From Lysobacteraceae bacterium NML93-0793 (GTDB lineage Bacteria > Pseudomonadota > Gammaproteobacteria > Xanthomonadales > Xanthomonadaceae), in the NCBI GenBank assembly GCA_002324875.1, contig NTJG01000011.1, positions 1 to 64,000 of the forward strand: a stretch of DNA of 64,000 nucleotides, in the 5' to 3' direction. Positions 16,786 through 46,081 of this stretch are shown in pieces. The translations under genes and the position numbers were made by a program. Numbering within the stretch: position 1 is the first letter of the stretch; each line of letters starts with the position of its first letter. The notes beneath the pieces are model-generated. The model ran no database searches. It had not been told where the DNA came from and saw nothing but the letters and a program-made list of their open reading frames with translations.

Positions 16786-16901
16786 GCCGTGCAACCGTGG
16801 CGCGGACGAGGTCAGTCTCTGCCGCAAGAGCGGGAAGCGCTCAGCTCCAAGGCCGGAAGAATGCGAGCACTACTCCGCGCGGTGCACTTCGCGTGTTAAT
16901 T
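16786..16901 (-). other. Possible degenerate attC at the outer end of the array
   Basis: GTTAATT at 16895-16901 (RYYYAAC-like on the minus strand) overlaps the stop of the 305-aa cassette gene. It is mirrored by GTGCAACCGTGGCGCGG at 16786-16802, with the arms GTGCA...CGCGG and CCGCGCGGTGCAC roughly complementary. The left core does not fit GTTRRRY well, so this is a weak call. Confidence 0.3.
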
Positions 16902-17815
16902 CACCACGTGAAGCCCGACTGGTAGGGCAGGACTGGCCGGATAACCTGGCGAACTTCCACGACGGTGTACGTGGCGTGGATCACTTCCATGTTGTAGCCG
17001 TAGTAGACCTCTTCTTGCATTACCACTCGTAGCGAATCGCCCGGCTTGACATCGATCTCGCCAGCCTGGAAGCGGCTAAGCCAGGGAATATCATCGAAGT
17101 TCGCGTTGATGTTGTGGCCGGCGTACTTCAGGACCCACTGTGAACGCCCAAGGAAGTCGGGCTTCTTGACCTTGACGATGCGCTCATCGGTGGCCGAAAT
17201 GACCTCGCGTGTGAGCAGCTCGCGGATAAGCTCTTCATGGACGTGCTGGGTATGCGAGATCGTTACGCGCCCGTAGGGACTCTCGTAGCGGACAGTATCT
17301 CGCGGATCCAGTAGCAACACTGACCGGTCTATTTCGGCGATTACGCCCAACAGGGTGCGCAAATCTACTGGGCGGTACATTGGGAGGAGACGTGCGCCCG
17401 TGCGCTCCGCTTCCACTGCCAGTTGGTCTTGCAGGTCACGCACTTGCTCTAGTCGTGTGACTTCCGGGTTCTCCTTCAGCCATTCCAGCAAGACGTGCTT
17501 TCCGCGCACAAGGAAGTGGCCCAGCACCTTCTTCCATTCGCCATCTTTGAGTGCGTCATCGGGGATATCAGCGATGATGCTCCTCAGCTTTGAGCGAATG
17601 GACCCGCCCGTAACCTCATCAAGCACGATTTCGGCTTGAGATCCCTCGGCCACAATTCCGGCCAAGACTTGATCTAACTGCGCAAAGGCATCGATCAGCT
17701 CGCCCATGGAGTGGAAGACTCGGGAAGGCGAGCCGCGACCCTCTACGAAGTCAATGTAGAGATCGAATTCTTCGGAACCCTGGGTTTCTTCTTCGGCCAC
17801 CGTGATCTCCCCCAT
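16901..17815 (-). CDS. Cassette-borne protein of unknown function (304 aa)
   Basis: I do not recognise a family. The protein is soluble and acidic at the N-terminus (GEITVAEEETQGSEEFDLYIDFVEG), with no signal peptide or membrane segment. The middle has a helical, charged region (LEQVRDLQDQLAVEAERTG). The C-terminal part reads as beta-strands (SQWVLKYAGHNINANFDDIPWL, EVYYGYNMEV). ATG at 17815 was preferred to the adjacent GTG at 17818; both lie just after the attC core. It is the fifth and outermost cassette, with codon use and GC unlike the backbone, so its expression from the integron promoter is probably weak. Confidence 0.7.
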   Translation of the reverse strand: MGEITVAEEETQGSEEFDLYIDFVEGRGSPSRVFHSMGELIDAFAQLDQVLAGIVAEGSQAEIVLDEVTGGSIRSKLRSIIADIPDDALKDGEWKKVLGHFLVRGKHVLLEWLKENPEVTRLEQVRDLQDQLAVEAERTGARLLPMYRPVDLRTLLGVIAEIDRSVLLLDPRDTVRYESPYGRVTISHTQHVHEELIRELLTREVISATDERIVKVKKPDFLGRSQWVLKYAGHNINANFDDIPWLSRFQAGEIDVKPGDSLRVVMQEEVYYGYNMEVIHATYTVVEVRQVIRPVLPYQSGFTW

Positions 17816-17820
17816 CACGT

Positions 17821-18368: not shown

Positions 18369-18429
18369 GGATGTACTGCAGAACCTCATCAGGGGCCTAA
18401 CACCTTATGTCTTGAGTTTCCCCTAGCCT

Positions 18430-18590
18430 AAGAGCCGAGAGCCCGGCGTGCGCGCCCGATAATGCCTCGGTGTCAGCACCACCGTAATTCAGCAGGGGCC
18501 GCACGCCGGATCTCGTGCCCTGCGCCCGAACAGTTGGTCGAGGTTTCCCTCGAACTGATAAGCGTGGGCCTCGGGCGCGATGCTCTCGAC
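18430..18590 (+). ncRNA. Predicted bridge RNA of the IS110 element
   Basis: Two stem-loops lie in the noncoding 5' end. Loop 1: outer stem CCGGCGTGCG/CGCACGCCGG (18443-18452 with 18500-18509), extended by CGAGA/TCTCG; inner stem CGGTG/CACCG (18468-18472 with 18480-18484). Its left strand TAATGCCT (18460-18467) matches the target top strand TAACACCT allowing two G-U wobbles. Its right strand TAATTCAG (18485-18492) is the exact complement of the right target CTGAATTA. Loop 2: outer stem GCGCCCGA/TCGGGCGC (18522-18529 with 18571-18578), inner stem TCGAGG/CCTCGA. Its left strand ACAGTTG (18530-18536) equals the element's right end, and ATAAG (18558-18562) complements CTTAT at the left end. This reproduces the target- and donor-binding loops of IS621-type bridge RNAs. 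Transcription is inferred. Confidence 0.8.
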
Positions 18591-18615
18591 CGGCCAACTG
18601 TAACGGAGAACGGGC

Positions 18616-19539
18616 ATGCGGGCAGCGGGGATTGACGTGGGCAAGGCCAATCTGGATCTGGCCATGGATGGGGAGTCCGGGGTGGCGCGCTTTGCCAACA
18701 ACCGGGCGGGCATCGCCAAGCTGGTCAAGCGCCTGGTTGCGATGGGCGCGGAGCGGATCGTGGTTGAGGCGACCGGTGGCTACGAAGAGCCACTGCTTGA
18801 GGCCTGCTGTGACGCCGGGCTCTGGATCGCGCGGGTGAACCCGCGACAGACCCGCGACTTCGCGCGCGCGACGGGGGAACTGGCCAAGACCGACGCGATA
18901 GACGCCAGGCTCCTTGCGCTCATGGCCCGCATGTTTGGCGATCGCCTGCGCCGTCACGTAGCGCCGCCGGTGTGGCAGCGTGAGTTGCGCGACTGGCTGC
19001 GCCGACGCGGCCAAGTGGTCGTGTTGATCCAGGCCCAGAAGCAACAGGCAGCCCTGGCGCCGAGCGCGGTCCGCAAATTGGTCGCGCGGACGACCGCTGC
19101 TCTGGCGCGCGAGCTCGCCGCGATCGAGCGCGAGATTAAGGCCCTGATCGAGAAGCACGCCTCCCCGGCACTGCGCTCGAGCAAAGGCCTGGGCCCTGTC
19201 TTCCAGGCCACCATGCTCGCACTGCTTCCGGAGCTCGGGCATCTCAATCGCAAGGAGATCGCCAAACTCACTGGCGTGGCACCCATGAACCGCGAAAGCG
19301 GCCAAGGCCAAGGTAAGCGCCGTATTCGCGGTGGGCGGGCGCCCGTCCGCGTTGCGCTCTACATGGCCACGCTCTCGGCCGTGCGTTGGGATCCGCTGAT
19401 GAAGGCGCACTACCAGCAGCTGAGAGCACGCGGGAAGCTGGGCAAGGTGGCGCTGGTCGCTTGCATGCGCAAGCTGCTTGGCATCGTCAATGCCAGGCGT
19501 CGCGATGAGCTACGGAGCGAGGGCTTGGCACTGGCTTGA
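18616..19539 (+). CDS. IS110-family transposase (RuvC-like DEDD recombinase)
   Basis: 307 aa. The N-terminal DEDD_Tnp_IS110 domain shows GIDVGKANLDLAM (first Asp), VVEATGGYEEPL (Glu) and LAKTDAIDARLLALMA (two Asp), the full acidic tetrad. A coiled segment of basic and glutamine residues follows. The C-terminal Transposase_20 domain has GPVFQATMLALLPELG and LTGVAPMNRESGQ, containing the catalytic Ser, then RIRGGRAPVRVALYM. No frameshift or stop, so the enzyme could be active. ATG 18616 is the start that preserves the first Asp motif. The gene reads opposite to the cassettes. With the upstream guide RNA it would carry out RNA-guided insertion. Confidence 0.92.
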   Translation: MRAAGIDVGKANLDLAMDGESGVARFANNRAGIAKLVKRLVAMGAERIVVEATGGYEEPLLEACCDAGLWIARVNPRQTRDFARATGELAKTDAIDARLLALMARMFGDRLRRHVAPPVWQRELRDWLRRRGQVVVLIQAQKQQAALAPSAVRKLVARTTAALARELAAIEREIKALIEKHASPALRSSKGLGPVFQATMLALLPELGHLNRKEIAKLTGVAPMNRESGQGQGKRRIRGGRAPVRVALYMATLSAVRWDPLMKAHYQQLRARGKLGKVALVACMRKLLGIVNARRRDELRSEGLALA

Positions 19540-19606
19540 GCGGCACGCTTCAAGACAGTTGCTGAATTAAGCCGCGCCGCGAAGCGGCGTCGGCTTGAAT
19601 GAATTG

Positions 19607-19918
19607 TTAGGGCTCACCCGCCGCCGCATAAAGCTCCTCGAATACATGGCCTGGCATCCATGTTTCATACTGGCCTGTGGTGTCGAGCTTGCGAACTACA
19701 AGATAGCCCATGCAGATGTGGATATGGCTGCTCGGCGGAGGTTGCATGGCCCAATCCGAACTGTGCCTGCTATAGCGGTGCTTGTAATCTCGGTTTGAGA
19801 TCTCAGCGGCCTTGACCGTAGCACCGAACCTTTGAGCAGTTTCTCGGTCGCGGGCAGAGTATGTGTCCATCTGCTCCAACGAAACGAATGGCCTTTCTTC
19901 CCAACTCAGAATGTCCAT
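19607..19918 (-). CDS. Cassette-borne protein of unknown function (103 aa)
   Basis: Not recognised. It is a small soluble protein opening MDILSWEERPFVSLEQMDTYSARDRE, here read as two parts around its acidic centre. It has a basic, aromatic middle (SNRDYKHRYSRH), a His-rich SSHIHICMGYLVVRKL and an acidic C-terminus. There is no signal peptide. The TAA stop lies within the R'' core of its attC site, typical of compact cassettes. It is the third cassette from attI; its own attC is the one broken by the IS110 element. Confidence 0.65.
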   Translation of the reverse strand: MDILSWEERPFVSLEQMDTYSARDRETAQRFGATVKAAEISNRDYKHRYSRHSSDWAMQPPPSSHIHICMGYLVVRKLDTTGQYETWMPGHVFEELYAAAGEP

Positions 19919-20545: not shown

Positions 20546-20605
20546 GGCTAACGCCTGAGTTAAGCCGCGCCGCGAAGCGGCGTCGGCTTGAATGAATTGT
20601 TAGAC
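20546..20605 (-). other. attC site of the aadA-like cassette
   Basis: 60 bp. On the minus strand R'' GTCTAAC (20605-20599) and R' GTTAGCC (20552-20546) flank GCCGACGCCGCTTCGCGGCGCGGC. The sequence is almost the same as the attC of mobile class 1 integron aadA cassettes (CAATTCATTCAAGCCG and CGGCTTAACTCAGGC arms). R'' complements the attI-side core GTTAGAC. Confidence 0.92.
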
Positions 20606-20606
20606 A

Positions 20607-21404
20607 TCATTGGCTGGCACCAAGCAGTTTAACTGCTTCATATTTCACGAATTTAATCAACGCCGCCACCTGATCCGCACGAGCGGGCAAATAATCTTTT
20701 TCTTGCCCAAGATAAGCTCGCTTCGCATTCAACAGGATGGGCTGATGTTGAGCCGGCAAGCGTGCCATTGCCCAAGTGGCAGCAACATCCTTTGGCGCGA
20801 TCTTGCCGGTTGCTGCGGTGTACCAGATACGAGACAAAGTAAGCACTACATTCCGCTCATCCCCCGCCCAATCTGGCGGCGAGTTCCATAGCTTCAGAGT
20901 ATCGGCCAGTGCCTTGAGTAGATCGCTTTCTGGGACTGAGCTGAAGAGATCCTTCGCCGCTGAACCTGCCAAGACGATGCTATGTTGCTTTGCCTTTGTT
21001 AGCAGAATCGCCAAGTCAGAGTCGGTTGTGGCGAGCTCGAAAATGCCCGCAAGGATGTCTTTGCGCTGCCACTCTCCGAACTGCAGTTCCCTCCTGGCCG
21101 GATAACGCCAAGGTACGATGTCACTGCGCACGACGATGGTCACTTCCAAGGCGCGGACTGCCTTGCTTTGGCCAGGGGAAGCTGAAACCTCCAAGAGATC
21201 GACGAGCAGAGCTTGCCGCACGGCCTCATTGAGCGGCGCAGCTACAGTCACCAGCAAATCAATATCACTGTACGGTTTCAATCCACCATCCAGTGCGGAG
21301 CCGTACAAATGCACGGCCAGCAACGTCGACTCCAAGTGGCGCCCGATGACGTTGAGTGCTTGTGATAGTTGCACCGAAATCTCGGCGGGCACTTTTTCAC
21401 TCAT
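20607..21404 (-). CDS. AadA-like aminoglycoside 3''-adenylyltransferase (ANT(3''))
   Basis: 265 aa, full length. Predicted to adenylylate streptomycin and spectinomycin. The nucleotidyltransferase motif is YGSALDGG with G35-S36, then SDIDLLV giving Asp47 and Asp49. The catalytic Glu87 is in ALEVTIV; ELQFGEWQRKDI and WAGDERNVVLTLSRIWY follow in the helical substrate domain. Positions coincide with those of known AadA enzymes. The sequence is clearly homologous to mobile AadA1 but diverges throughout (for example QALNVIGRHLES and KDYLPARADQVAALI), so it is a distinct variant. ATG 21404 follows the core GTTAGACATC, as in mobile aadA cassettes. It is the first cassette after attI and so best placed for expression. 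Resistance is predicted, not shown. Confidence 0.92.
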   Translation of the reverse strand: MSEKVPAEISVQLSQALNVIGRHLESTLLAVHLYGSALDGGLKPYSDIDLLVTVAAPLNEAVRQALLVDLLEVSASPGQSKAVRALEVTIVVRSDIVPWRYPARRELQFGEWQRKDILAGIFELATTDSDLAILLTKAKQHSIVLAGSAAKDLFSSVPESDLLKALADTLKLWNSPPDWAGDERNVVLTLSRIWYTAATGKIAPKDVAATWAMARLPAQHQPILLNAKRAYLGQEKDYLPARADQVAALIKFVKYEAVKLLGASQ

Positions 21405-21407
21405 GAT

Positions 21408-21574
21408 GTCTAACAACTATTGGACCGCTAAAACGCGGCGTTGCGCCGAGTATCAGCTATCGGCAGCGGGGCGGGAAGAGGGGGAATTCCTACGCTGCAT
21501 CAATACGTTGGCGGATTCATGGTGTGTCCCATCGGGCGGACGCTGCATGCGTTATCCGACGAAAAAGCGGGCGT
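21408..21574. promoter_or_regulatory. attI recombination site and divergent promoter region of the integron
   Basis: The insertion core reads GTTAGAC on the minus strand (21414-21408), preceded by CCAATAGTT. Between it and the integrase start are about 160 bp that must hold attI, the cassette promoter Pc reading left and the intI promoter reading right. I could not pick out convincing -35/-10 pairs or a LexA box of the CTG-N10-CAG type. Confidence 0.7.
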
Positions 21575-22588
21575 ATGAGTTACACCGGCGGAAATGAGGG
21601 CGTAACGGGTGGCCAGCAACCGCGCTTGCTGGAGCAGGTGCGGGCCCGCCTTCGGGTCAAGCACTACAGCCTGCGCACCGAGCAGGCGTATGTGAACTGG
21701 ATCCGGCGTTTCGTAATCGCCAACGGCCGGCGTCACCCGCGTGAGATGGCCCGGGCCGAGGTGGAGGCGTTTCTGACTAGGCTTGCGACCGACGGCCAGG
21801 TCTCTGCGGGCACCCAGAACCAGGCGCTGGCCGCCTTGCTGTTCCTGTACCGGGAGGTGCTGGACATCGAGCTGCCGTGGATGGAGGGTCTGGTGCGGGC
21901 CAAGCGGCCACGGCGGTTGCCGGTGGTGCTGTCGCGGGAGGAGGTAGCGCGTCTGCTTGCCGCCCTCGAAGGGCCGTGCTGGCTGATGGGCGCCCTGCTG
22001 TACGGAAGCGGCATACGGTTGCTCGAATGCCTGCGCCTGCGGATCAAGGATGTCGATACCGCGCGTAGCGAGATCACGGTACGCGACGGCAAGGGCGGCA
22101 AGGACCGGCGCGTACCGCTGCCGGTGAGCCTTCAACCGCATCTCGAGCGTCAGCGCGAGCATGCGATCGTGCAGCACGACGCGGATCGTGCAAACGGTGG
22201 CGGCCGGGTCCATCTGCCGCATGCGCTCGCGCGCAAGTATCCCGGTGCGGAGCTCGAACCGGGCTGGCAGTACCTGTTTCCGTCGGCGCGCCTGTCGATC
22301 GATCCGCGTACCGGGCGCAGCGGAAGGCATCATGTGTCGGAAGAAGTCCTACAGCGGGCGGTGAAGCGGGCGCGCATCCGCGCCGGAATCCTCAAGCCCG
22401 CCACGTGCCATACGTTGCGGCATTCCTTCGCCACGCATCTGCTCGAAGCAGGTCACGACATTCGCACGGTCCAGGAGCTGCTGGGCCACAAGGATGTCGC
22501 GACGACGCAGATCTATACCCATGTGCTGGGGCGCGGCGCATCCGCAGTCGCAAGCCCGCTCGACAGGCTGCTGTCTGCCGGAGGGTGA
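21575..22588 (+). CDS. intI: Integron integrase IntI (tyrosine recombinase)
   Basis: 337 aa, the same length as IntI1. The N-terminal SAM-like core-binding domain ([17 protein letters not shown]) precedes the catalytic domain. The catalytic set is complete: Arg in [14 protein letters not shown], Lys in [27 protein letters not shown] (His and Arg), [11 protein letters not shown] (His) and IYTHV (nucleophile Tyr). The IntI-specific extra patch [21 protein letters not shown] is present and separates it from XerC/D. ATG 21575 (MSYTGG) was chosen over upstream in-frame codons that run into attI. It lies divergent from the cassettes and ends 21 bp from ilvD, convergent. No disruption is seen, in contrast with the many inactivated Xanthomonas intI genes. 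Confidence 0.95.
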
Positions 22589-43944: not shown

Positions 43945-43994
43945 GCGCCCTGCGCGCTGGTGCCGCTGCCGCTTTCGCGGTCTAATGCGCGCTG

Positions 43995-46081
<2,087 letters not shown>

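Follow-up and report, generated by a model that had tools for sequence, protein, structure and literature searches.

An IS110-group element inserted in an integron attC site and its predicted bridge RNA of the sX15 family

The window analysed here, a 64,000-nucleotide stretch of the genome of Lysobacteraceae bacterium NML93-0793, contains a chromosomal integron with an integron integrase and cassettes bearing attC sites, one of which is split by an insertion element. The locus raises the question of how the element came to lie at this point of a gene-cassette recombination site. The explanation favoured below, which we regard as very probable, is that it was inserted into attC by means of a bridge RNA, one loop of which pairs with attC and the other with the ends of the element itself.

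The element, its transposase and its predicted bridge RNA

Direct reading of the sequence delimited an intact IS110-group element of ~1.2 kb within the attC site (18404–19561), followed by a second CT (19562–19563). Downstream of this right CT core, GAATTAAGCC...GGCTTGAATGAATTGTTAGG constitutes the remainder of the attC, and joining across the break with a single CT yields a normal site, GCCTAACAC-CT-GAATTAAGCC...GGCTTGAATGAATTGTTAGG. The same reading bears out the preliminary description of this DNA, in which the element ends had been placed at the attC break and the CT core. The coordinates of all features are collected in Table 1.

Table 1. Features of the split attC site, the inserted element and their surroundings in the window.
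Feature	Position	Strand	Basis or remark
Frame adjoining an attC	16901–17818	-	LAPAL-motif putative phage structural protein family, NF053583, 64.5 bits (cut-off 60)
Left target TAACAC	18398–18403	+	Last bases of R'' in the broken attC, R'' starting with GCCTAAC at 18395
CT core, left copy	18404–18405	+	Sequence
Element left end TATGTCTT	18406–18413	+	Sequence
TGTCTT	18408–18413	+	Forms a 6-bp subterminal inverted repeat with AAGACA of the right end
TAGCCT, candidate -10 box	18424–18429	+	17 nt from the TTGCTT formed if the ends join around CT
Predicted bridge RNA region	18429–18590	+	Two internal-loop hairpins within a closing stem; fold, covariation
Left target guide TAATGCCT	18460–18467	+	Pairs with the bottom strand of TAACACCT, two G-U wobbles
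Right target guide TAATTCAG	18485–18492	+	Exact complement of CTGAATTA
Left donor guide ACAGTTG	18530–18536	+	Identical to the element right end
Right donor guide ATAAG	18558–18562	+	Complement of CTTAT (core and left end)
IS110-family transposase, 307 aa, intact	18616–19539	+	PF01548 and PF02371; NF033542; IS621 match
Element right end AAGACAGTTG	19552–19561	+	Sequence; conserved in relatives; ACAGTTG at 19555–19561
CT core, right copy	19562–19563	+	Sequence; CT likewise in 21/21 distinct right junctions
Right target GAATTA and remaining attC	19564–19612	+	Sequence; GTTAGG at its end
AadA-family cassette gene near the integron integrase	20607–21416	-	NF012157, 462.9 bits (cut-off 375)
Integron integrase	21524–22588		TIGR02249, 492.5 bits (cut-off 265)
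TPP riboswitch aptamer	43989–44083	+	RF00059, 68.2 bits (gathering score 54.3)

The transposase is of the DEDD type with a C-terminal Transposase_20 domain, as in the IS110 group (PF01548, 72.7 bits; PF02371, 60.2 bits), and scored 181 bits against the model of IS110-family RNA-guided transposases, NF033542, whose cut-off is 140. Its nearest PDB chains are IS621 and ISCro4, with an alignment spanning residues 4–290 and an E-value of 8.1e-27 for IS621. Residues D7, E51, D93, D96 and S228, which we take to be catalytic, fall within motifs aligned to IS621. The gene is preceded by 210 nt (18406–18615) and followed by 22 nt (19540–19561) of the element, which is the layout of the IS110 group; the IS1111 arrangement, in which the RNA comes after the transposase gene and the right end is long, is absent. 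The subterminal inverted repeat, AAGACA/TGTCTT, is 6 bp long, below the minimum of 7 bp for the IS1111 group (range, 7–17 bp) and above the 2–3 bp reported for the IS110 group in the sections consulted of PMC11208160. Related transposases were present in 2,294 of 72,556 plasmid records, all of them at less than 60% identity.

The plus strand of 18429–18615 folds at -89.2 kcal/mol (z -3.64; 1 of 200 shuffles equally stable) into both internal-loop hairpins, surrounded by an extra closing stem, GAGAGC/GCUCUC. The preliminary description had named two 5' stem-loops with internal loops, their individual guide strands, and a plan as in IS621, with a target loop before a donor loop, matching guide polarity and a CT core. 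The stem-loops are present in this fold, every guide strand is confirmed at its position by sequence, and the plan stands, as does the IS110 layout it had claimed, i.e., an IS110-type transposase with a predicted guide-RNA region upstream. In an alignment of 109 rows, from which L199 (containing Ns) was excluded, the target guides sit in an internal loop flanked by conserved stems. Forty RNAs, one or a few per genome, were picked from these rows for the analysis of covariation, which gave 32 consensus pairs, in 19 of which one or more sequences differ on both sides. Overall, 96.9% of cells were paired, and cells with changes on both sides numbered 220, compared with 71.2 in shuffles (0/500 reached this value), while shifting the partner columns by 1–3 as a control reduced pairing to 35–50%. 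Further pair types were no more numerous than in shuffles of these 40 RNAs (39 vs 38.3; 228/500). The donor guide ACAGTTG was invariant in all 40. The region thus has the two hairpins of a bridge RNA, with internal loops that correspond to target and donor and with conserved pairing, and the match of the guides is not attributable to chance, since relatives show these guides again, at an identical position in attC.

Insertion sites and guides in related elements

The attC users constitute a single branch (100/99) of a tree of 28 transposases, from which L195 (184 aa) was omitted; the branch includes L003 and L024. Junctions were counted where a flank of at least 30 nt and a fixed end pattern were present, so the left ends of L052, L053 and L199 are uncounted. 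No left junction came from L024 and L029, which have the transposase and the target loop and no element ends, or from L025, whose left end is unrecognisable. From raw lists of 34 left and 23 right junctions, a register repeat on the left of L022, the duplicated right end of L021 and a chance right match in L022 were removed. Among the 33 distinct left junctions, all of them with different 30-nt flanks, 31 are attC by a strict rule, that of the window included, one is near-attC (L039, CCAACGCC) and one is not attC. On the right, 20 of 21 distinct junctions are attC (19 by the script rule, plus L017, an attC with one base different), L003 being the exception, and all 21 start with CT, compared with a T as second core base in just 46 of 83 native attCs. 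Such recurrent insertion at one attC position is what defines an attC-targeting insertion sequence.

Conserved guides beside unrelated sites had been named in advance as a finding that would speak against the guide reading; the outcome favoured it, with the same guides at the same site and one exception, L003, in 33 left junctions. The latter clade member lies outside attC, between CAACTCCT on the left and CTGAAGCC on the right, and its guides are the usual ones and match the site in part, so that, judged from sequence, it looks like an off-target insertion. The left flank of L199, TAATGCC, has one mismatch to the guide TAACGCC, and in L131 the left guide has diverged. A search of 369 genomes of the class with the guide pattern CCCGMTAAYRCCTCGGT matched three, namely that of the window, one of the same family and G421; the match in G421, within a coding gene and with no adjoining insertion sequence, was rejected as chance.

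Several copies of the clade depart from the common arrangement. The right end of L021 is tandemly duplicated ahead of the attC, ACAGTTGC...ACAGTTGCT. In L024 and L029, which belong to one genus, the clade transposase and the target-loop hairpin occur in the same context with neither donor loop nor ends, and the transposase of L029 is interrupted by a stop; these copies are decayed or possibly domesticated. In L002, L005 and L019, the L' part of the attC that holds the element is followed by another frame resembling a transposase gene. That of L005 reached DEDD_Tnp_IS110 at its cut-off of 29 bits when the L005 piece was scanned, and those of L002 and L019 are bounded by GGACTCC/GGAGTCC inverted ends, as expected for IS1111 elements. 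From these features we infer that the second transposase beside attC belongs to an IS1111-attC element, and a single attC in each of these loci seems to hold two transposons, one per end.

Related elements outside the attC clade have other guides and other targets: CTACATGG with CCATGTAG in G256, CTCTCCCG with CGGGAGAG in G231, AAGTCGCT with AAGTCGCA in G134, and AAGCCGCT with AAGCCGCA in G271. With hand-picked representatives, the best offset taken, wobbles at half weight and kin sequences that are non-independent, left guide–target agreement averaged 6.35/8 in 34 representatives, compared with 4.95 when permuted, and right agreement 7.48 in 23 representatives, compared with 5.67, with 0/20,000 permutations as good in either case; with one representative per target class, the figures were 0/20,000 for 15 on the left and 27/20,000 for 6 on the right. 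That guides change where sites change, as the guide reading predicts, is thus upheld across the related elements. Agreement on the left was weak (4.5–5/8) in G147, G210, G084, G189, G137, G208b, G221, G233 and G265, all outside the attC clade, and the core T has no match in many guides there. Within the clade, the guide allele TAACACCT (G133, three copies) goes with TAACACCT sites, and TAACTCAG (G215, G155 and L009) with CTGAGTTA sites.

Dispersed repeats, present in as many as 437 copies per genome, serve the related elements as targets. AAGYCGCTCCTACA occurs 229 times in G134, 437 in G271, 363 in G281 and 120 in G058, once in G117, and not at all in G000, G277 and G133; read backwards, it occurs once over nine genomes, in G277. 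AGATCCCTCGCTGCG has 41 copies in G208, one in G134 and none in three other genomes. The attC target pattern TAACRCCTGARTTAAGCC was present in 11 of 12 genomes searched, twice in that of the window (window positions 20549–20566 and C3:83411–83428).

Variation of the attC target itself was assessed in 676 kb of sequence in 36 stretches, which provided 127 attC 3' ends, 87 of them with an intact 5' part and 83 with standard spacing. Across these 83, two target positions are strongly variable, TAAC(G 48, A 34, T 1) and GA(A 50, G 32, T 1)TT, and so is position 2 of the core (T 46, G 19, A 17, C 1). Variation is lower at the base that follows the core (G 77, T 5, A 1) and at the first base of the core itself (C 74, T 9); each of two further target positions has a single exception. 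Opposite the two variable purines the common guides carry G and U, which allows pairing with either allele; counting wobbles as pairs, they match in full 38 of the 46 attCs whose second core base is T. The guide of the window likewise pairs with 38 of 46, that of G133 (A) with 10 and that of G215 (C) with 11. The native attCs of G133 are A-rich (16/22, vs 18/61 elsewhere; Fisher p 0.0008, from one lineage with non-independent cassettes). We hypothesise that G-U wobble would let one guide serve most CT-core attCs, and a wobble-capable letter at both variable positions is not improbable by luck. The pattern suggests a way for one guide to serve a family of variable sites.

The sX15 family and the strand of the RNA

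The sole Rfam family above cut-off at the RNA region is RF02234 (sX15), which matches 18429–18590 on the minus strand with 125.1 bits (gathering score, 55 bits) and the plus strand with 28.3 bits, under the cut-off. Its Rfam entry describes an Xanthomonadaceae small RNA modelled on the strand opposite to the predicted bridge RNA; sequence and structure are the same over this interval. A covariance search with IS110 bridge-RNA models had been proposed as a check in the preliminary description; sX15, a related public family, fits best exactly at the position given there, on the other strand. Matches to RF02234 (E 0.001) occurred in 62 of 297 genomes of the family, 42 of them above cut-off, and in none of 14 control genomes. 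Across 369 genomes of the class, it was found in two, both of the same family, and no wider range is therefore claimed. Of the 81 sX15 stretches taken, 63 extend for 400 nt or more on the relevant side; an IS110 transposase gene starts at most 150 nt away in 58 of them, reading away on the strand opposite the sX15 match; the five without such an adjoining transposase are L131, L132b, L199, L206 and L207. That an integron-encoded small RNA, sRNA-Xcc1, named in PMC12444791, might be a guide RNA as well was considered and found unsupported, an Rfam scan of seven loci having given sX15 only.

The much better fit of the minus strand to RF02234 would agree with transcription of that strand, sX15 then being an antisense regulator of the transposase or of other genes. 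The minus strand also folds well (-91.9, z -3.79), which is similar to the plus strand, and fold energy was dropped as evidence of strand, both folding about equally. Against this reading, the IS621-like order and polarity of the guides are obtained from the plus strand only. Moreover, among non-Watson–Crick cells of the consensus stems, the plus reading gives 25 G-U compared with 12 A-C, in a manual count that omits pairs 110/152 and 127/133 (mostly G-U) and uses a structure predicted on the plus strand, which favours that strand. A minus-strand RNA could also exist alongside the plus-strand one. We judge minus-strand transcription with an antisense role very unlikely, and sX15 is likely the bridge RNA of this IS110 lineage. 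This identification appears to be new as far as the literature searches reach: with thin coverage of subscription papers and preprints, they returned no paper linking sX15 or RF02234 to a transposon or an IS110 bridge RNA, and sX15 was encountered as an RNA only once, within a list.

Proposed mechanism, alternatives and known systems

The bridge RNA is predicted to be transcribed from the DNA directly upstream of the transposase gene. In an excised circle, the right and left ends would be joined around CT, creating a TTGCTT-17-TANNNT promoter that could drive the RNA; TANNNT occurs at the 17-nt spacing in 21 of 22 distinct left ends, and this spacing fits the junction promoters described for IS621 and ISEc21, which points to a putative promoter function. 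The target loop would pair with TAACRC-CT-GARTTA, a site of 14 nt lying between R'' and L'' in attC, and strand exchange by the transposase would take place at CT, on the pattern of IS621. The split attC has probably lost the ability to recombine, which would fix the neighbouring cassettes.

The distribution of the element might instead reflect cassettes with an already split attC that were spread by the integron integrase, with few targeted transpositions. Two pairs of loci, L045 with L046 and L048 with L050, share the right-hand cassette and have different left flanks, as cassette shuffling or array duplication could give. This account is at odds with the 33 left junctions with different 30-nt flanks, with the match of the attC bases adjoining the element to the guide, with guide alleles that track site alleles and with a clade member, L003, outside attC; we consider it highly improbable. 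Equally improbable, in our assessment, is that the transposase recognises the folded attC hairpin itself, the RNA matches being secondary. While attC does fold into a hairpin, and several other targets of the lineage are found at the borders of palindromic dispersed repeats, insertion is always on one side and in one orientation, with CT in every distinct right junction, and where related elements have other target letters, their guide letters differ as well. Guidance by the bridge RNA accordingly remains the preferred explanation of the insertion.

A wider reading would make sX15 the bridge RNA of an IS110 lineage of Lysobacteraceae whose guides were reprogrammed again and again among high-copy dispersed sites, with an attC branch that covers site variants by wobble and, in at least one host (G133), a guide retuned to the attC allele prevailing in it. 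The element would then be an RNA-guided parasite in co-evolution with integrons, whose arrays it fixes, a counterpart to the IS1111-attC elements at the other end of attC. We hold the chances for and against this combined account to be evenly balanced.

Class C-attC group II introns are retroelements and use a different mechanism. They are likewise mobile elements that insert at attC, according to a reference given in PMC9229058, whose consulted sections report no insertion sequence in attC sites, so that this paper was set aside as a precedent. In most IS110-group members the bridge RNA lies in the left end (PMC11208160; Durrant et al. 2024; IS621 structure 8wt6, in the parts consulted). The element shares with IS621 the DEDD transposase, the RNA region at the left end, the target loop before the donor loop, the CT core and the end-junction promoter, here predicted; it differs in its target, its 307-aa transposase and its sX15-family RNA. 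The statement of the preliminary description that the known attC-targeting insertion sequences belong to the IS1111 group, with the RNA on the other side of the transposase, is confirmed by the relevant part of PMC11187229 for the elements treated in it. There, ISKpn4, ISPst6 and ISPa25 are of IS1111 type and have their RNA after the transposase gene; they are RNA-guided and insert at one attC end, as is predicted for our element, but their guide strands are in opposite order, whereas the window element has its RNA upstream and the IS110 order. The same source describes ISEc21 and ISMch6, of IS110 type with an upstream guide RNA, whose targets are in IS3-family transposase genes rather than in attC, ISMch6 being a case of natural retargeting. 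Two further candidate precedents were rejected on their consulted passages, PMC11616780 referring to ISPa21 of the IS1111 group and PMC11089894 to an "IS110 (IS1111 group)". The literature searched yielded no attC-targeting element with IS110 layout. The mechanism is already known; within the reach of the searches, the IS110 layout with an attC address and the reprogramming within one lineage appear to be new.

The findings give an unexplained Rfam small-RNA family a likely identity and show a single IS110 lineage retargeting its guide RNA in nature, one of its addresses being the site at which gene cassettes recombine. Compact recombinases of 307 aa with naturally matched sets of guides and targets constitute a test bed for the rules of specificity. 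Should split attCs prove inactive, the order of cassettes would be frozen by elements of this kind.
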